Shown here one piece after another: positions 52,695-61,724 of a stretch of DNA of 64,000 bases; within the stretch, counting starts at the first letter, position 1, and every line of letters starts with the position of its first letter. Both the position numbers and the translations under genes were made by a program. The notes under the pieces were generated by a model that saw nothing but the letters and a program-made list of their open reading frames with translations, did no database searches and was not told the origin of the DNA. Source of the DNA: Christensenella massiliensis (lineage in GTDB: Bacteria; Bacillota; Clostridia; Christensenellales; Christensenellaceae); the NCBI GenBank assembly GCA_900155415.1, contig LT700187.1:992001-1056000 (forward strand). The letters are read 5' to 3'.

Positions 52695-54827
52695 ATGGCG
52701 AAAACAGCCGTTAAGGTACCCGTTGTTATGCAGATGGAAGCGCTGGAATGCGGCGCGGCGAGCCTTGCGATGATTCTGGCCTATTATGGGAAATGGCTCC
52801 CGCTCGAGCAGGTGCGCGCCGACTGCGGCGTATCGCGCGACGGAAGCAGCGCGCGCGATCTGGTGCGCGCAGCCCGCGCCTATGGGCTTTCAGCCGCGGG
52901 TTACCGCATGGAGATAGAGGACGTCATGGCCTGCAGCTTTCCTGTGGTCCTGCATTGGGGATTTGATCATTTTGTCGTATTATGCGGCTTCAAAAGGGGG
53001 AAAGCCCTCATAAACGACCCTGCGCGCGGACGGGTAGCGGTGCCGATGGAGGAATTCGACCGCACGTTCACGGGCGTTGTGCTGTGCTTTGAACCAACTG
53101 GGGATTTTGAGCCCAGCGGAAAACCGGCAAGTGTGCTCGGATTCGCAAAAAAGAGGCTGCGGGGCAGCCGGGCGCTGATTCTGTTCGTCATGCTGTGGTC
53201 GCTGATCGGTGCGGCGATCGGCGTGGTGATTCCCCTCTTCTCTAAAATATTTATGGATCATATCCTGTCCGGCAAAAATCCGGAATGGCTTACGCCTCTT
53301 TTAAGCGTCATGCTCGGCGTGCTTGTTTTTCAATTTGTGGTATCCGCGCTGCAAAACGTCTATTGGCTGCGGATACAGGGGAAGATGGCCGTACAATCCA
53401 GCGCCTCGTTCATGTGGCATGTACTGCGCCTGCCTGTCGGCTTTTTTGCACAGCGCTATGCGGGCGATATCGCCGCGCGCCAGCAGAGCAATGAGGGTAT
53501 TGCATTTTCTCTCATCGGGCGTATCGCGCCTGTGGCAGTCAATATATGCCTGCTCGTGCTCTATTTGTTCGTGATGCTGCGCTACAGCGTCCTGCTGTCG
53601 GCAGTCGGCCTTTCGGCAGTGGCGGCGAATGTTATCGCCATGCGCGTCATCTCGAATAAGCGCGTCGATTTCAGCCGCGTGATAGAGCGGGATATGGGCG
53701 CGCTGGCGGGGCTCACAGCCGCCGGCTTCGACATGATAGAAAGCATCAAGGCCGCAGGCGCGGAGGAGGGCTTTTTCGAGCGGTGGAGCGGCGCGTACGC
53801 AAAGGCGAATAACGGACGTATCCGCATGGAAAAGGCAAATCAATATTACGGCGTCATTCCGCAGTTTATCCAGCAGATCGCCAATATCGCCGTGCTCGTC
53901 CTCGGCGTCAGCCTCATATTGGACGGACAGTTCACGATCGGTACGCTGCTCGCGTTCCAAGGCTTCCTGTCCTCCTTTCTTGCGCCGGTAAACGAGATCG
54001 CGCAGATCGGCTCCGCGTTCATCGAGATGCGCACGCAGATGGAGCGTGTGGAGGATGTGCTGCACTACCGGACGGACGTTCCCGCAGCGGACGGAGGAGG
54101 CGGGGAAAAGCTGAACGGAGAGATCCGCATGGAGGGCGTTACATTTGGCTATGCCCGTCTTTCCCAGCCGCTCATCACAGATTTTTCTCTTCATGTAGGT
54201 CCCGGAAAAAGCGTCGCGCTCGTCGGCGCGTCCGGGAGCGGGAAATCCACGCTGGCCAAGCTGATCGCAGGGCTCTATCCGCCGTGGTCGGGCAGGATAT
54301 CGCTGGACGGCCGGGAGCTCAGCGCGATCCCGCACAGCGTGCTTACGGATTCTCTCAGCGTCGTCGATCAGGATATCGTTCTGTTCGAGGATACTGTGGA
54401 GAACAATATCACGATGTGGGACGCTTCCATCTCCCGTGCGGACGTGATAGAGGCGTGCAGGGCGGCGGAGATACACGCGGATATCATGCAGCGGCCGGAG
54501 GGGTACGATTATATCATCCGGGAGGGCGGCATGAATTTTTCGGGCGGGCAGCGCCAGCGGATAGAGATCGCACGCGCCCTTGCCGTAAAACCGCGCATTC
54601 TGGTGCTTGATGAAGCCACGTCGGCTCTGGACGCGAAAACAGAGCAGCAGGTCATGGAAAACATCAAGCGCATGGGGCTCACCCTTGTAGTCGTCGCGCA
54701 CCGCCTTTCCACGATCCGCGGCTGCGACGAGATCATCGTCCTCGAAGGCGGGCGGGTCTGCGAGCGCGGAACGCACGAGGAACTGATTGCCGCGCACGGC
54801 AAATATGAGGAATTGATCAGAAGCTAA
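52695..54827 (+). CDS. NHLP-family peptide export ABC transporter with C39 peptidase
   Basis: 710 residues: C39 peptidase (1-135), six-span exporter domain (about 150-440), ATPase (about 475-710). Peptidase triad Cys19 (QMEALECGAAS, oxyanion Gln13), His92 (GFDHFVVL), Asp108 (NDPARG), all intact, so it should cut a double-glycine-type leader during export. Walker A GASGSGKST about 513, signature SGGQRQR about 616, then ILVLDEATSALD. AAGGAGG precedes the ATG, 10 bases after the HlyD gene. Confidence 0.95.
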   Translation: MAKTAVKVPVVMQMEALECGAASLAMILAYYGKWLPLEQVRADCGVSRDGSSARDLVRAARAYGLSAAGYRMEIEDVMACSFPVVLHWGFDHFVVLCGFKRGKALINDPARGRVAVPMEEFDRTFTGVVLCFEPTGDFEPSGKPASVLGFAKKRLRGSRALILFVMLWSLIGAAIGVVIPLFSKIFMDHILSGKNPEWLTPLLSVMLGVLVFQFVVSALQNVYWLRIQGKMAVQSSASFMWHVLRLPVGFFAQRYAGDIAARQQSNEGIAFSLIGRIAPVAVNICLLVLYLFVMLRYSVLLSAVGLSAVAANVIAMRVISNKRVDFSRVIERDMGALAGLTAAGFDMIESIKAAGAEEGFFERWSGAYAKANNGRIRMEKANQYYGVIPQFIQQIANIAVLVLGVSLILDGQFTIGTLLAFQGFLSSFLAPVNEIAQIGSAFIEMRTQMERVEDVLHYRTDVPAADGGGGEKLNGEIRMEGVTFGYARLSQPLITDFSLHVGPGKSVALVGASGSGKSTLAKLIAGLYPPWSGRISLDGRELSAIPHSVLTDSLSVVDQDIVLFEDTVENNITMWDASISRADVIEACRAAEIHADIMQRPEGYDYIIREGGMNFSGGQRQRIEIARALAVKPRILVLDEATSALDAKTEQQVMENIKRMGLTLVVVAHRLSTIRGCDEIIVLEGGRVCERGTHEELIAAHGKYEELIRS

Positions 54828-54844
54828 ACGAAAGGAGGCGCACA

Positions 54845-56992
54845 GTGGAAAGAAACAAAAAAGAACGGGAGCAGGAAGCGATGGATACGGCACTGGAAGC
54901 GCTCCTCTCCGTTTTTGGCAAAGAGGCGCCCGGAACAGACGGCGCGCAGCCCGCAGCGGACGGTATGCCCGCGCTGCGGCAGATACTCCGCTATCTGAAA
55001 GCGGATGCGCCGGAACCGCCGGAGGAAGTAACGGAGCTCCGGGAAAAAATGGAATATATGCTGCGCCCGGCAGGCGTCATGTGCAGACGGGTGCGGCTCA
55101 CCGGAGCGTGGTGGAAAGAGGCGGCGGGGCCTTTTCTCGGTTCGCTCGCAGATGGAACGGCAGTCGCTCTTCTGCCTGCGGCGGGAGGATACTGCTATAC
55201 CGACGGGGCGGGAAAGCGCGTCAGGATCACCAAAAAAAATGCGGGAAGCATCGAGAAAGAAGCCTGTTCTTTCTACCGGGGCTATCCTCTCCGGCCGCTG
55301 AAGCTGATGGATTTCCTGAAATTTCGGTTGGAGAGCATTTCCGTGTGGGACGTCGTATGGGTGTTGATCGCGTCGCTCGGCGTGAGCCTGCTTGGGCTGG
55401 TGCTGCCCATGATCAACAAGCTGATCTTTGACAATATCATTCCCGGAAATCTTCGGGAGGATATTCTGCCTGTTGCCGCCCTGCTCGTCGGAGCGACGGT
55501 AGGCAGCCTGCTGTTCGGGATATCGCGCACCCTCGTCATGTCGCGTTTGAGCAACAAGATGTCGTTTGCCTCCCAAAACGCCGTCATGGCACGTATTTTC
55601 TCGCTGCCTGTGTCGTTTTTCAAAGACTATTCGGCGGGAGACCTTGCCCAGCGCTTCAATGGGATCAACACGGTGTCGCAGGTCGTTTCAGACGGCGTGC
55701 TGACCGCAGGACTTTCGGTGCTGTTCTCGTTCGTATACCTGTTTCAGATGAATTCTCTGGCGCCTGTCCTCGTCGGACCGGGCATGCTTGCCATCGCCGT
55801 GATGCTGGCGGTGATCGTCGCAACGGTCCTGCTGCGTATGAGATTTATGAAGCTGCAGACAGAGGCGGCGGCAAAATGCAGCGGCCTTACGTTCAGCCTG
55901 CTCGGCGGGATCCAAAAAATCAAGCTGGCGGGCGCAGAACGGCGCGCATTCGCAAAATGGGCGGAGCTTTTTGCGCGGGAGGGGCGGTATGAATACAATC
56001 CGCCTTTCGGCATCAAGATCGGCTCCGCGCTGACCGGTGCGGTCTCGCTCGGCGGCACGATCCTGCTCTATCTGATCGCCGGTACGAACGACGTCTCCCA
56101 ATCGGACTACATCGCGTTTTCGACCGCATACGGGGCAATATCCGCCGCGCTCATCGGGCTTTCGGGCGTGGTCGTGCAGATTGCGATCATCAAGCCGCTC
56201 CTCGACCTCGTTCAGCCTATTTATGACGCACAGCCGGAAAAAGCGGAGGAAAAAAAGCAGGCCGTTTCTCTCAGCGGAGAGGTGGAGGTGTCGCACCTGT
56301 CTTTCCGGTATGGGGAAAAGCTGCCCTATGTCCTCAAGGACCTCAGCTTGCATGTCGCCCCGGGCGAATATGTCGGCATCGTTGGAAAGAGCGGCTGCGG
56401 AAAATCCACCCTGATGCGCCTTTTGATCGGTTTTGAAACGCCCGGCTCAGGCGCGGTCTATTACGACGGGGAGGACCTGCGGGAGTTCGATCTGCGCAGT
56501 ATCCGGCAGAAGATCGGCGTCGCCCTGCAAAATGGGAAGCTGTTTGCGGGGGATATTTTCTCCAATATCGTCGTCACTGCGCCGTGGAGCACGCAGGAGG
56601 ATGCATGGGAGGCCGCCCGGCTCGCAGGGATAGCGGACGACATCGCCGCTATGCCGATGGGCATGCATACGGTGATCAGCGAAGGCAGCGGCGGGATATC
56701 CGGCGGACAAAAGCAGCGGCTCCTCATTGCACGGGCCCTCGTGGGAAAGCCGAAGATATTGCTGTTCGATGAAGCGACGAGCGCGCTCGATAATGCTGTG
56801 CAAAACGAGGTGGCGAAAAATATCGCCCGGCTCGGCTGCACGCGCATCGCGATCGCGCACCGTCTTTCCACCGTAAGGGAATGCGACCGCATCATCATGA
56901 TAGACGGCGGACAGATCGCGGAGGAAGGAACTTACGACGAGTTGATGGAAAGGAAAGGGCTGTTCTATGAGTTTGCCGTCCGGCAGATTTGA
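54845..56992 (+). CDS. NHLP-family export ABC transporter permease/ATPase (second subunit)
   Basis: 715 residues, start GTG 54845 with AAAGGAGG seven bases before. The N-terminal 150 residues form a non-peptidase domain typical of the second NHLM transporter (TIGR03797-like). Exporter spans at about 165-430. ATPase with Walker A GKSGCGKST, signature SGGQKQR, and Walker B ILLFDEATSALD. Most likely forms a heterodimer with the C39 transporter. Spaced 17 bases from it. Confidence 0.93.
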   Translation: MERNKKEREQEAMDTALEALLSVFGKEAPGTDGAQPAADGMPALRQILRYLKADAPEPPEEVTELREKMEYMLRPAGVMCRRVRLTGAWWKEAAGPFLGSLADGTAVALLPAAGGYCYTDGAGKRVRITKKNAGSIEKEACSFYRGYPLRPLKLMDFLKFRLESISVWDVVWVLIASLGVSLLGLVLPMINKLIFDNIIPGNLREDILPVAALLVGATVGSLLFGISRTLVMSRLSNKMSFASQNAVMARIFSLPVSFFKDYSAGDLAQRFNGINTVSQVVSDGVLTAGLSVLFSFVYLFQMNSLAPVLVGPGMLAIAVMLAVIVATVLLRMRFMKLQTEAAAKCSGLTFSLLGGIQKIKLAGAERRAFAKWAELFAREGRYEYNPPFGIKIGSALTGAVSLGGTILLYLIAGTNDVSQSDYIAFSTAYGAISAALIGLSGVVVQIAIIKPLLDLVQPIYDAQPEKAEEKKQAVSLSGEVEVSHLSFRYGEKLPYVLKDLSLHVAPGEYVGIVGKSGCGKSTLMRLLIGFETPGSGAVYYDGEDLREFDLRSIRQKIGVALQNGKLFAGDIFSNIVVTAPWSTQEDAWEAARLAGIADDIAAMPMGMHTVISEGSGGISGGQKQRLLIARALVGKPKILLFDEATSALDNAVQNEVAKNIARLGCTRIAIAHRLSTVRECDRIIMIDGGQIAEEGTYDELMERKGLFYEFAVRQI

Positions 56993-58196: not shown

Positions 58197-58232
58197 CAAA
58201 AGGGCGCAGCTGCAGGGCTGCCCCTTTTTTTA
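58197..58232. terminator. Bidirectional terminator
   Basis: AAAAGGG-C-GCAGC / GCTGC-CCCTTTT stem with T7, between the NHLP operon and the convergent HxlR gene. Confidence 0.88.
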
Positions 58233-58550
58233 TCCGTTTTTCTGCTTATATTCCGTACCCCACGCAACCATAGCGTCCAGAATAGGCTTTAAGCTATAGC
58301 CGGTTTCCGTAAGCGTGTATTCCACGCGGGGCGGGACCTCGGCATAAACCTTTCTTGTCAGCAGGCCGCTTTCCTCCATAGAGCGCAGGTTTGCAGTCAG
58401 GACCTTCTGAGAAACATCCCCAACGGAGCGCTTCAGCTCTCCAAAGCGCTTCGTGCCCTCCATCAGGTCCCGCAGGATGAGCACCTTCCAACGGTCGCTG
58501 ATGAGCATCAAAGTGGTCTCCACCGGGCAGGCCGGCAAATTTTTTTTCAT
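58230..58550 (-). CDS. HxlR-family transcriptional regulator
   Basis: 106-residue winged helix-turn-helix of the HxlR/MarR-like type, with the Cys at residue 8 (LPACPVETTLMLISDRWKVL) that senses electrophiles or redox in several family members. RFGELKRSVGDVSQKVLTANLRSMEESGL is the DNA-binding core. AGGGGG precedes the ATG. Divergent from the NAD(P)-binding oxidoreductase, which it probably controls. Confidence 0.93.
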   Translation of the reverse strand: MKKNLPACPVETTLMLISDRWKVLILRDLMEGTKRFGELKRSVGDVSQKVLTANLRSMEESGLLTRKVYAEVPPRVEYTLTETGYSLKPILDAMVAWGTEYKQKNG

Positions 58551-58571
58551 AAAATCCCCCTGTTTTACACA

Positions 58572-58593
58572 ATAGTTTCTATTTGGTAACTAT
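58572..58593. promoter_or_regulatory. Candidate HxlR operator
   Basis: ATAGTT-n10-AACTAT inverted repeat, followed by AGCAC-n6-GTGCT (58594-58609), in the divergent region. Plus-strand TATAAT at 58639-58644 gives the likely oxidoreductase promoter. Confidence 0.5.
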
Positions 58594-58696
58594 AGCACAA
58601 TAAAGTGCTTACTTTACGATTCGGGACTACAGATATATTATAATATCAGAAGCGGAACAGAGCAAGCCGCAAAAATAAAAAACGGAGGAAAGCAAA

Positions 58697-59326
58697 ATGA
58701 AGATCGCAGTTGTTTGTGCAAATGGAAAAGCAGGAAAGCTGATCGTGCAGGAGGCTATGGAAAGAGGGCTCGACGTCACCGCTGTCGTGCGCGGGGAAAA
58801 CCGCACGGTAGCGAAGCAGGTGATAAAAAAGGACCTGTTCGATCTGACGGCGGACGACCTCAAGGATTTCGACGTTGTGATAGACGCATTCGGCGCGTGG
58901 ACGCCGGAGACTTTGCCGCAGCACAGCACGTCGCTTAAGCATCTTTGCGATATTCTGAGCGGCAGCAGCATCAGGCTGCTCGTTGTCGGCGGCGCCGGGA
59001 GCCTGTATGTAGACCCGGCGCATACGGCGCAGGTCATGGACGGAGTGGATTTCCCGGATATGTTCAAGCCCTTGGCAACGAATATGGGAAAGGCACTGGA
59101 CGAGCTCCGCGCGCGCAGCGATGTAAAATGGACCTATATAAGCCCGGCGGCGGATTTTCAGGCGGACGGTGCAAAAACGGGGAAATATATTCTGGGCGGC
59201 GAAGAGCTGACGCTGAACGGCAAGGGAGAAAGCGTGATCAGCTATGCCGATTACGCCATTGCCATGGTGGACGAAGCCATAAGCGGGGAACATATCCAAG
59301 AGAGGATCTCCGCAGTGGCGGAATGA
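58697..59326 (+). CDS. NAD(P)H-binding oxidoreductase (NmrA/YwnB-like)
   Basis: 209-residue atypical short-chain dehydrogenase with a Rossmann start KIAVVCANGKAGKLIVQEA. The pattern continues DVVIDAFGAW, RLLVVGGAGSLYVD and WTYISPAADF. The typical tyrosine-lysine pair is not obvious. Divergent from HxlR, as is common for electrophile-response genes. GGAGG precedes the ATG. Confidence 0.88.
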   Translation: MKIAVVCANGKAGKLIVQEAMERGLDVTAVVRGENRTVAKQVIKKDLFDLTADDLKDFDVVIDAFGAWTPETLPQHSTSLKHLCDILSGSSIRLLVVGGAGSLYVDPAHTAQVMDGVDFPDMFKPLATNMGKALDELRARSDVKWTYISPAADFQADGAKTGKYILGGEELTLNGKGESVISYADYAIAMVDEAISGEHIQERISAVAE

Positions 59327-59379
59327 GCGGAAGCAGCCCCCTGCCGAAGGAACAGGGGGCTGCTTGCTTTGGAGGAACG

Positions 59380-60006
59380 ATGAAAGCAGAACGGTATTTA
59401 CAGATGCTGCAAAAGGATATCCATTCGGTGGTGCTTGCCTCGACGGATGAAAACGGCCTGCCCGTCACCTGCGTGATCGACGTCATGCTGGCAGGACAGG
59501 ATGGGCTTTCCTTTCTCACGGCAAAGGGAAAAGCGCTTTACAGGCGTCTCAAAGAGCGGCCGTTCGTCTCTATCACAGGGTTTACGGGAAAAAGCACAAT
59601 GAAGAGCAGGGCCGTCACCCTGCGCGGCGAAACGCGGGAAACGGGCCGGGAAGAGCTGGCGGAAATATTCCGGGAAAACCCTTACATGGTTGAAATATAC
59701 CCAAGCACGGAAAGCAGGACGGTGCTGACCGTATTCCGGCTCTATCGGGGCAGCGGAGAATTTTTCGATCTGAGCCAAAAGCCTGTTTTTCGGGAAGCGT
59801 TTTCGTTCGGCGGGCTGAAAACGCATGCAGAAGCATTCTTTATCACAGCAGACTGCAATGGGTGCGGACGCTGCGCCGCTGCCTGTCCGCAGGATTGTAT
59901 CGACCTGTCCGTTCGTCCTGCGTGCATACGGCAGGAGCATTGTCTGCACTGCGGGAAATGTGAGGAGCTCTGCCCGCGGCAGGCGGTGGAAAGGAGAGCA
60001 TTATGA
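59380..60006 (+). CDS. FMN-binding (PNPOx-like) protein fused to 2x[4Fe-4S] ferredoxin
   Basis: 208 residues. An N-terminal pyridoxamine-phosphate-oxidase-like split barrel (1-140: IHSVVLASTDENGLPVTCVID; FLTAKGKALYRRLKERPFVS) probably binds FMN. The C-terminal dicluster ferredoxin (155-200) has Cys159, 162, 165, 169 and Cys188, 191, 194, 198. An electron-transfer flavoprotein-ferredoxin. Ribosome binding site GGAGG. Its stop overlaps the macrodomain start as ATGA, linking it to the ADP-ribosylation module. The oxidoreductase at 58697 lies 53 bases upstream and may read through. Confidence 0.92.
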   Translation: MKAERYLQMLQKDIHSVVLASTDENGLPVTCVIDVMLAGQDGLSFLTAKGKALYRRLKERPFVSITGFTGKSTMKSRAVTLRGETRETGREELAEIFRENPYMVEIYPSTESRTVLTVFRLYRGSGEFFDLSQKPVFREAFSFGGLKTHAEAFFITADCNGCGRCAAACPQDCIDLSVRPACIRQEHCLHCGKCEELCPRQAVERRAL

Positions 60007-60776
60007 CACAAGAGGAAAGGCGCATCTTTCTGATCGACTATTTAAAGCATGAGGACAGCAGGCTGGAGCAGCTGGAGCTTCCCGCTGGGGAAGAGGAGCA
60101 AAAGCGCCTCCTGCGTTCTCTTATGAATGTGCGTCCGGCAAGGCCGGCCCCGCCGGAGTTTATGGCGGTGCAGGACGCGTATTTGCTGGAAGAGCGGGAA
60201 AAAAGGGGGATCGTCTTTCCGGAAGCGCTTTCTCCGGTCAGGCCGGGAATTTATCTGTGGCAGGGCGACATTACCCGCCTTGCCGCGGACGCGATCGTCA
60301 ATGCGGCGAACAATGCCCTCCTTGGCTGCTTTGTTCCCTGCCACGGCTGTATCGATAACGCGATCCATTCCGCCGCGGGCATACAGCTCCGGCTGGAGTG
60401 CGCGCGCATAATGGAACGGCAGCAGGCGCCGGAACCGGCAGGGAGGGCGAAGCTCACAAGGGCTTATAATCTGCCCAGCCGCTATGTACTGCATACGGTC
60501 GGGCCTATCGTGCGCGGCGCGGTCACGAGGCAGGACAGGGCCTTGCTTGCAGCTTGCTACCGCTCCTGTCTGGCGCTCGCCGCGGACCGTCGGCTGAAAA
60601 GCATTGCCTTTTGCTGCATTTCCACCGGCGAATTTCATTTTCCGCCCCAAAAGGCGGCGGAAACGGCGGTACGGACGGTGCTGGAATATTTGGAGAAAAA
60701 CGGGAACGGTATGGAGGTGATCTTTAATGTCTTTCAGGACAGCGACTATGAGCTCTACCGGCGGCTGCTGGCATAG
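60003..60776 (+). CDS. Zinc-dependent macrodomain ADP-ribosyl hydrolase
   Basis: 257-residue macrodomain protein of the SirTM-linked type. An N-terminal helical region (1-80) precedes the macro fold: WQGDITRLAADAIVNAANN (86-104). The zinc motif C109-x3-C113-H114-x-C116 (GCFVPCHGC) follows, a hallmark of this class, then YVLHTVGPIV and ISTGEFHFP. It would remove ADP-ribose from a target protein modified by the sirtuin. ATGA overlap with the ferredoxin gene; the sirtuin start lies inside its 3' end. Coupled translation of all three is likely. Confidence 0.93.
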   Translation: MTQEERRIFLIDYLKHEDSRLEQLELPAGEEEQKRLLRSLMNVRPARPAPPEFMAVQDAYLLEEREKRGIVFPEALSPVRPGIYLWQGDITRLAADAIVNAANNALLGCFVPCHGCIDNAIHSAAGIQLRLECARIMERQQAPEPAGRAKLTRAYNLPSRYVLHTVGPIVRGAVTRQDRALLAACYRSCLALAADRRLKSIAFCCISTGEFHFPPQKAAETAVRTVLEYLEKNGNGMEVIFNVFQDSDYELYRRLLA

Positions 60777-61593
60777 TGTCCGGCGGCTGAAAGCGGAGCT
60801 CGAAGCGGCCGACGCCGTATTGGTCGGCGCGGGGGCCGGATTATCTGCCTCTGCGGGCTTTACCTATTCCGGCAAACGCTTTGAAGAGAATTTCCCGGAT
60901 TTTATCCGGAAATATGGATTTTCGGACATGTATTCCGCGGGCTTTTATCCCTATGAGACCTTAGAGGAGCACTGGGCGTATTGGAGCCGCTATATTTTCA
61001 TCAACCGCTATGAGGACGCGCCAAAGGACGTCTATGGGGCCCTGCTGGCGCTGCTGCGGGATAAGGATCATTTCGTGCTTACGACGAATGTGGACCATTG
61101 CTTTCAAAAGGCGGGCTTCGACAAGCACCGGTTATTTTATACGCAGGGCGACTACGGCCTGTGGCAGTGCTCGAAGCCCTGCCATGCGAAAACGTATGAT
61201 AACGGGCGGAGCGTCCGGAAAATGCTTGCGGAGCAGAAGGATATGCGCATCCCGCCGGAGCTTGTTCCGCACTGCCCGCGCTGCGGCGCTCCGATGACGA
61301 TGAACCTGCGGGCGGACAGCACCTTTGTGGAGGATGAGGGATGGCATAGAGCGGCGGCAAGATATCAGGATTTCGTGCGCCGCCACAAGGACCTGCGCGT
61401 CCTGTATCTGGAGCTTGGCGTGGGCGGCAACACCCCGGGGATCATCAAATATCCGTTCTGGCAGATGACCTATCAGAACCCAAAGGCGGTCTATGCCTGC
61501 GTCAATCTGCTGGAGACCGGCGTCCCGTCCGGGCTTGCGGGACGTTCCATCCGCATCAAGGGAGATATAGGGAGCATTCTTGCGCAGCTATAG
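60727..61593 (+). CDS. Class M sirtuin (SirTM), predicted protein ADP-ribosyltransferase
   Basis: 288 residues. NAD-binding GAGAGLSASAGF (34-45), TTNVDH with Asn121, and zinc cysteines 148/152 and 183/186. The canonical catalytic His is replaced by Gln140 (YTQGDYGLWQ), the SirTM hallmark, and these enzymes ADP-ribosylate rather than deacetylate. ATG 60727 has GGAGGTGA upstream inside the macrodomain gene. In Staphylococcus and Streptococcus SirTM modifies lipoylated GcvH-L; no gcvH-L or lplA is visible here, so the target is unknown. Confidence 0.93.
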   Translation: MSFRTATMSSTGGCWHSVRRLKAELEAADAVLVGAGAGLSASAGFTYSGKRFEENFPDFIRKYGFSDMYSAGFYPYETLEEHWAYWSRYIFINRYEDAPKDVYGALLALLRDKDHFVLTTNVDHCFQKAGFDKHRLFYTQGDYGLWQCSKPCHAKTYDNGRSVRKMLAEQKDMRIPPELVPHCPRCGAPMTMNLRADSTFVEDEGWHRAAARYQDFVRRHKDLRVLYLELGVGGNTPGIIKYPFWQMTYQNPKAVYACVNLLETGVPSGLAGRSIRIKGDIGSILAQL

Positions 61594-61652: not shown

Positions 61653-61724
61653 AAAAAAGATGCCGGGGAGAAGCGTATGCTTTTTGCCCGGCATGCCTAT
61701 TACAACGACCGATTGGAGTTTTGT

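Follow-up and report, generated by a model that had tools for sequence, protein, structure and literature searches.

How could a class M sirtuin (SirTM) and its zinc macrodomain partner (Zn-Macro) work where the lipoylated carrier protein GcvH-L is missing? The question is raised by a gene cassette in the stretch of Christensenella massiliensis DNA analysed here (64,000 nucleotides of contig LT700187.1, positions 992,001 to 1,056,000; referred to as the window), in which the two genes follow a gene for a flavin-ferredoxin protein (PNPOx-Fd). We read the cassette as a redox- or electrophile-stress unit switched by an HxlR-type regulator, within which SirTM and Zn-Macro would carry out reversible mono-ADP-ribosylation independently of lipoate, and give this reading a probability of about 0.5. 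It is built on the genes and their motifs, a conserved gene order, a shared upstream box and the absence of lipoate machinery from most relatives with SirTM, all of which can be read directly from the sequences. The nature of the stress signal is suggested by the HxlR family, and the substrate and the consequence of its modification are put forward as proposals. The unit comprises the divergent HxlR gene and four plus-strand genes, at C1:1050230-1053593 of the genome (G000; one contig, 2,560,186 bases):

58230 to 58550, minus strand: HxlR-family regulator, 106 residues (PF01638, 117.9 bits; nearest NCBIfam model RrpB)
58571 to 58619, plus strand: putative conserved operator/promoter-like box, pattern core 58586-58617 (pattern scans)
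58697 to 59326, plus strand: NAD(P)-binding NmrA-like protein, 209 residues (PF13460, 55 bits)
59380 to 60006, plus strand: PNPOx-Fd, split-barrel flavin-type domain plus 2x[4Fe-4S] ferredoxin, 208 residues (Pfam, alignments, AlphaFold2)
60003 to 60776, plus strand: Zn-Macro, zinc macrodomain, 257 residues (NF003163, 8rsi, motifs)
60727 to 61593, plus strand: SirTM, class M sirtuin, up to 288 residues (5a3a, motifs)

The end of PNPOx-Fd is joined to the start of Zn-Macro by an ATGA overlap, as the first-pass annotation of this DNA had stated, and SirTM starts within the Zn-Macro gene at ATG 60727 or 60748. Zn-Macro scored 345.9 bits against NF003163 (cut-off 272), and its best PDB chain was 8rsi (1.7e-79), which is MorMacro (PMC11490716). 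It displays the motifs by which Zn-Macros are defined there, namely NAAN (100-103), the zinc loop Cx4HxC (109-116; C109-H114-C116) and Dx3H (118-122; D118/H122), all kept at 97% or more across 112 aligned sequences. An N-terminal extension of about 80 residues is present, and the alignment to 8rsi begins at residue 2. SirTM scored 19.6 bits against Pfam SIR2, under the cut-off of 24, and had 5a3a as best PDB chain (7.4e-80). Its residues N121, D123, Q140-G141, R195, GVGGNTP and N260, each at 95% or more across 121 aligned sequences apart from the variable x of GVGxNTP, compare with the traits described for class M sirtuins, in which QG replaces the catalytic HG alongside N118/D120/R192 (Spy) and GVGx[NT]TP (PMC4518038). 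The expected linkage between the two was also observed, as the genes overlap here and Zn-Macro occurred at 64 of 68 loci selected by SirTM (window included). Judged by family membership, both enzymes look functional, SirTM as a predicted ADP-ribosyltransferase lacking deacylase activity, and the gene set probably adds and strips an ADP-ribose tag. A second macrodomain gene is located elsewhere in the genome (C1:810450-810788; PF01661, 160.6 bits).

PNPOx-Fd is tied to SirTM well beyond this species. In a class sample of 391 genomes, SirTM matches at E<=1e-3 occurred in 73, and 65 were kept as SirTM-positive after matches weaker than 1e-30 had been dropped (G014, G097, G113, G148, G202, G204, G243 and G367). 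PNPOx-Fd matched at E<=1e-10 in 33 genomes, 31 of which remained once two ferredoxin-only matches (G095, G297) were removed. It was present in 29 of the 65 SirTM-positive genomes compared with 2 of the 326 others (G337, G350), with a Fisher p of 1.6e-23 that is only nominal because related genomes are not independent. The gene was located within 5 kb of SirTM on the same contig in 25 of these 29 genomes (exceptions: G124, G314, G316 and G325). The 68 SirTM-selected loci contained, besides Macro, HxlR at 31, PNPOx-Fd at 25, a radical SAM protein at 12, an Rrf2-type regulator at 9 and NmrA at 8. A second, overlapping set (L157 and L044 come from one contig) was selected by PNPOx-Fd and holds the best 80 of at least 541 relatives in named genomes. 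PNPOx-Fd stood immediately before Macro at 19 of the 68 and 45 of the 80 loci, the ends of the hidden Markov model (HMM) matches lying 4-60 bases apart. At 60 bits, SirTM was found in the flanks of 60 and Macro in those of 56 of the best 80 loci (59 and 54 at stricter cut-offs), and the next gene detected downstream of PNPOx-Fd was Macro in 50 and SirTM in 6. Counts for sPNPOx were not used, as its HMM also matches PNPOx-Fd. The first-pass annotation had named absence of the order PNPOx-Fd, Macro, SirTM from relatives as an outcome that would speak against it; the order is conserved in many of them.

The linkage was also retained where the genes are rearranged, as PNPOx-Fd, SirTM, Macro (L169, L179, L192) or with SirTM followed by PNPOx-Fd (L125, L133, L141, L144, L151, L155, L183). 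Hosts of the cassette include Mediterraneibacter, Eubacterium barkeri, Ruminococcus flavefaciens, Shuttleworthella and Anaerotignum, and also metagenome-assembled genomes labelled Methanomassiliicoccus, Spirochaetales and Chloroflexi, labels which may reflect contamination. Two natural fusions were set aside as proof of interaction: the locus with NTR-PNFd, L053, seems to be what a deletion left behind, and that with Macro-SirTM, L111, is fragmentary. A divergent SirTM branch was seen at L088 and L089, where a SirTM only about 36% identical to that of the window stands beside well-conserved HxlR, PNPOx-Fd and Zn-Macro. L090 has three consecutive SirTM-like matches, one of them partial, flanked on each side by an Rrf2 gene, and no macrodomain match. 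At L102 (G124), PNPOx-Fd has a further, partial Zn-Macro match as its neighbour and lies far from SirTM, possibly as a remnant of the cassette.

PNPOx-Fd itself scored 28.2 bits for PNPOx_N (cut-off 28.1) and 37.1 bits for Fer4. Its AlphaFold2 model, built from a 65-row alignment, reached a mean predicted local distance difference test (pLDDT) score of 94.8, and the split-barrel fold extends from residue 1 to about 147, followed by the C-terminal ferredoxin domain. In fold comparison the barrel matched 2hhz (Z 16.5, root-mean-square deviation (rmsd) 3.2, 132 aligned) and NimA/NimC 2ig6 (Z 15.9, rmsd 2.2, 132 aligned); because the split barrel fills the fold-search list, only sequence was used to assess the ferredoxin part. 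None of the eight cluster cysteines varies in the alignments of 33 and 65 sequences, and F45, T47, G50 and K51, which we take to hold the flavin phosphate, are likewise invariant in alignments A1 and A2. Modelled fold and flavin-phosphate-type motif point to a PNPOx-like/NimA split barrel, in which flavin or heme would be the ligand.

The regulator is an HxlR protein with a cysteine (Cys8) kept in 98% of 57 aligned sequences (window included). It scored 133 bits against the RrpB model NF047364 and is therefore not assigned to RrpB proper, for which the cut-off is 175. From 55 regions upstream of HxlR, including that of the window, a pattern (GTAACTAYNGCACNNNANNGTGCNTACTTTAC) of 32 bases was drawn, which lies at 58586-58617 in the window, did not occur in shuffles (0 expected) and is single-copy in the genome when as many as 3 mismatches are tolerated (control 0). 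A search of 156 loci, the window among them (1.69 Mb in all), that allowed up to 5 mismatches gave 63 sites at 55 loci, and none in the reversed control. Because the pattern was drawn from the same loci, this locus count is partly by construction; the absence of control hits and the single occurrence in the genome are not affected. A cassette gene follows within 470 bases downstream at 52 of the 63 sites (34 also with a divergent HxlR behind, 18 with the gene only), and a further 6 adjoin a divergent HxlR only; counted by regulator, 42 of 57 HxlR loci have the box. From this position HxlR may bind the box, the end of which overlaps a promoter-like site (TTTACG-17-TATTAT, 58613-58641) that is weak as a match of its own because the promoter scan found 2 against 2.0 expected. 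Other cassettes are accompanied by Rrf2-type regulators, which mostly replace HxlR.

That the HxlR/NmrA-like pair belongs to the cassette, as had been proposed, is borne out by the shared box and by relatives in which NmrA lies downstream of SirTM and has a box of its own (two sites per locus in L036, L040 and L044). The protein scored 55 bits for NAD_binding_10 (PF13460) and 19.8 bits for the NmrA model itself, below its cut-off of 27. At E<=1e-40 NmrA-like proteins occurred in 13 genomes of the class, 10 of them SirTM-positive. NmrA was therefore discarded as a specificity control for the association of PNPOx-Fd, which weakens the argument for PNPOx-Fd as substrate. An RNA hairpin is predicted at about 59332-59364 (z -3.98, no U tract), after the stop of NmrA and before the start of PNPOx-Fd; it may process or attenuate the transcript.

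A sister form of the cassette was found at 15 loci encoding a peptide with ACGX repeats (L039, L041, L045-L047, L051-L053, L056, L060, L064, L070, L106, L116 and L153). Within the stretches examined, a radical-SAM maturase is present at 14 of them, and SirTM together with Zn-Macro likewise at 14. Six loci (L045, L046, L052, L056, L060, L064) share the order divergent HxlR, ACGX-repeat peptide, radical SAM, nitroreductase, PNPOx-Fd, Macro, SirTM. Among the others, a gap of 1.2-1.7 kb separates PNPOx-Fd from Macro (L039, L041, L051), PNPOx-Fd was not found in the stretch examined (L047, L070, L116), the maturase (L053) or both Macro and SirTM (L106) are missing, or two PNPOx-Fd genes occur with no nitroreductase match (L153). 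The radical SAM protein of L046 scored 603.5 bits against TIGR04340, 'ACGX system' (cut-off 400), and two of the peptides scored 60.5 and 36.2 bits against TIGR04341 (cut-off 28). TIGR04340 exceeded its cut-off in 15 of the 391 genomes, all 15 among the 65 SirTM-positive ones (p=4.7e-13) and 12 within 5 kb of SirTM; matches under the cut-off in G112, G180 and G348 fell in genomes that are not SirTM-positive. The box was detected at 6 of the 15 loci, five times with 4-5 mismatches. The ACGX system appears to be an uncharacterised system of the ribosomally synthesised and post-translationally modified peptide (RiPP) type that is tied to ADP-ribosylation, a link for which no paper was found in the literature searched.

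We propose that the HxlR-type regulator, with its conserved Cys8, would control the promoter through the dedicated box at 58571-58619, and that stress would induce the NmrA-like protein, the flavin-ferredoxin protein, Zn-Macro and SirTM. SirTM would then use NAD+ to place ADP-ribose on a redox protein, from which Zn-Macro would remove it. In this scheme PNPOx-Fd would be the dedicated redox partner, its electron transfer being turned off by ADP-ribosylation and released again by Zn-Macro; among single proteins it is the strongest candidate for modification, a tentative assignment that we rate below an even chance. The first-pass annotation had likewise put the flavoprotein forward as a possible ADP-ribosylated target or, alternatively, as a redox sensor. 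A circuit of this kind, gating a redox protein under redox stress, is favoured because a redox carrier or flavoenzyme is common to the extended operon of pathogens (OYE, LLM and lipoyl-GcvH-L), the ACGX form and the form in the window. More speculatively, and with a low probability, SirTM/Zn-Macro pairs could act as a modular switch that each operon combines with a small, dedicated redox carrier of its own. Staphylococci and streptococci would then use lipoyl-GcvH-L for this, the window cassette its flavin/2[4Fe-4S] protein and the sister cassettes the ACGX peptide with its cysteine repeats. We know of no earlier case of reversible ADP-ribosylation of a RiPP-type peptide, and the ACGX peptide would, if the idea is correct, be the first known to us. 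The target in that form would be the thiols of the radical-SAM-matured peptide, which fits because Zn-Macros can cleave cysteine-linked ADP-ribose (PMC11490716).

Several observations weigh against this proposal. No PNPOx-Fd match was obtained in 36 of the 65 SirTM-positive genomes, and G124, the only other genome of the same genus sampled, keeps PNPOx-Fd far from SirTM and outside its cassette (HxlR, NmrA, SirTM, Macro). SirTM was missing from the flanks of 20 of the 80 PNPOx-Fd loci, some of which, not all, lie near a contig edge. On a SirTM tree of 65 rows the adjacency of PNPOx-Fd changes at least 14 times, as would also fit an exchangeable accessory; it is a quick tree in which 21 of the 62 inner branches are open and row L090 is very long. 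Of this tree only the change count is used, which cannot separate gain from loss. Five of the 63 box sites have neither a cassette gene nor HxlR beside them (L049, L073, L103, L114, L169), 15 of the 57 HxlR loci are without a box at up to 5 mismatches, and a single transcript is unproven because the strong hairpin parts NmrA from PNPOx-Fd. As NmrA is tied to SirTM too, association gives no means of picking PNPOx-Fd out as the substrate. Together with the genomes devoid of PNPOx-Fd, this makes it nearly as likely that the genes merely share a stress regulon, PNPOx-Fd and NmrA being co-regulated detoxification enzymes (NimA/nitro- or quinone-reductase-like) and the target of SirTM and Zn-Macro being encoded elsewhere and common to SirTM-positive species. 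Such co-regulation, a serious contender if somewhat short of even odds, would also agree with the variety of genes near HxlR and SirTM, where lactate dehydrogenase, hydroxyacid dehydrogenase, MBL-fold, SnoaL-like and cupin proteins were read from the translations. It accounts less well for PNPOx-Fd exceeding NmrA and radical SAM at the SirTM-selected loci (25 against 8 and 12, with the regulator at 31), for its abutting Macro in 19, and for the presence of SirTM in 29 of the 31 genomes with PNPOx-Fd. A neighbourhood arisen by chance or recent descent and lacking function, for which only the relatedness of the compared genomes speaks, has a negligible probability: the nominal Fisher value, the several families involved, the linkage kept through reordering and the box, with 0 sites in the reversed control, contradict it.

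Modification of a lipoylated protein was weighed against the distribution of lipoate genes. No GcvH match was obtained in the whole genome, and its one LplA-type ligase (C1:558268-558843) lies 491 kb from the cassette; the earlier claim that GcvH-L is missing thus stands, the counter-evidence named with it, a nearby gcvH-L or lplA with shared regulation, did not turn up, and membership in the extended GcvH-L/LplA2 operon was rejected. Strong matches (E below 1e-29) were found for LplA/LipB in 14, GcvH in 5 and E2 in 12 of the 65 SirTM-positive genomes, the GcvH and E2 sets lying within the LplA/LipB set. All three were absent as strong matches from 51 of the 65, and LplA had no match even at E<=1e-3 in 46. 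Weak GcvH matches (at most 29.1 bits) in 21 further genomes presumably represent biotin carriers, and weak E2 matches occurred in 9 further genomes; completeness was at least 90% in 63 of the 65. This census makes a lipoylated target improbable in those 51 genomes and rules out lipoyl-GcvH-L, the one target known for this tagging system, as the general target. ADP-ribosylation in trans of the lipoylated E2 of a 2-oxoacid dehydrogenase could still be argued for this genome, which counts against lipoate independence by holding LplA and four E2 matches, with one open reading frame containing two lipoyl/biotinyl-type domains. We consider it very unlikely: the genome has LplA and E2 but no GcvH, strong LplA, GcvH and E2 are missing from 19 of the 25 genomes with PNPOx-Fd near SirTM, one arginine of the Sau R175/R176 patch is kept in the window, and MorMacro, the Zn-Macro tested from a minimal operon, could not demodify GcvH-L (PMC11490716). 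At L043 (3063-3911; G385), a protein with a C-terminal GcvH-type match lies upstream of SirTM, with no macrodomain match within 10.8 kb.

Outside the cassette, a spoVB-like gene (below the spoVB model cut-off) starts at 61677, 3' of SirTM. It has a promoter-like site of its own, at a frequency no higher than in shuffles, and was not counted as part of the unit. At 52695-56992 lie two adjoining ABC transporters that appear to resemble RiPP exporters, the first of which begins with a Cys-peptidase-like part; a periplasmic-binding-type protein follows.

Compared with known proteins, PNPOx-Fd has the same N-terminal fold as the NimA/NimC and PNPOx split-barrel proteins (2ig6, 2hhz) and differs by its fused C-terminal 2[4Fe-4S] ferredoxin domain. 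Like the redox regulator RrpB (PMC8765430), HxlR has a conserved N-terminal Cys and is divergent from a redox gene set, although it scores under the RrpB cut-off. The window cassette shares HxlR, PNPOx-Fd, Zn-Macro and SirTM with the ACGX system (TIGR04340 + TIGR04341) of relatives, from which it differs in that a motif scan found no ACGX-like peptide in the window and TIGR04340 was not found in the genome at E<=1e-80. No report of the PNPOx-Fd partner or the shared box was found in the literature searched, which did not extend to supplementary tables (some of the loci may be listed in Table S3 of PMC11490716), bioRxiv preprints or the majority of articles in subscription journals. The neighbour gene that recurs, the shared box and the link to ACGX all point to concrete candidates and a regulator, in non-pathogenic anaerobes among other organisms. 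As in the extended operon of S. aureus and S. pyogenes (PMC4518038), SirTM and Zn-Macro occur with flavin oxidoreductases (there OYE and LLM) in a redox-linked locus, with PNPOx-Fd and the NmrA-like protein here instead of GcvH-L and LplA2. The pair of SirTM and macrodomain without GcvH-L is real at this locus, but the bare pair is not new, having been published as the minimal operon of the MorMacro type, in which Zn-Macro and SirTM likewise adjoin without GcvH-L or LplA (PMC11490716). To that pair, the window adds HxlR, a box shared by HxlR and NmrA, and a flavin-ferredoxin gene abutting Macro.

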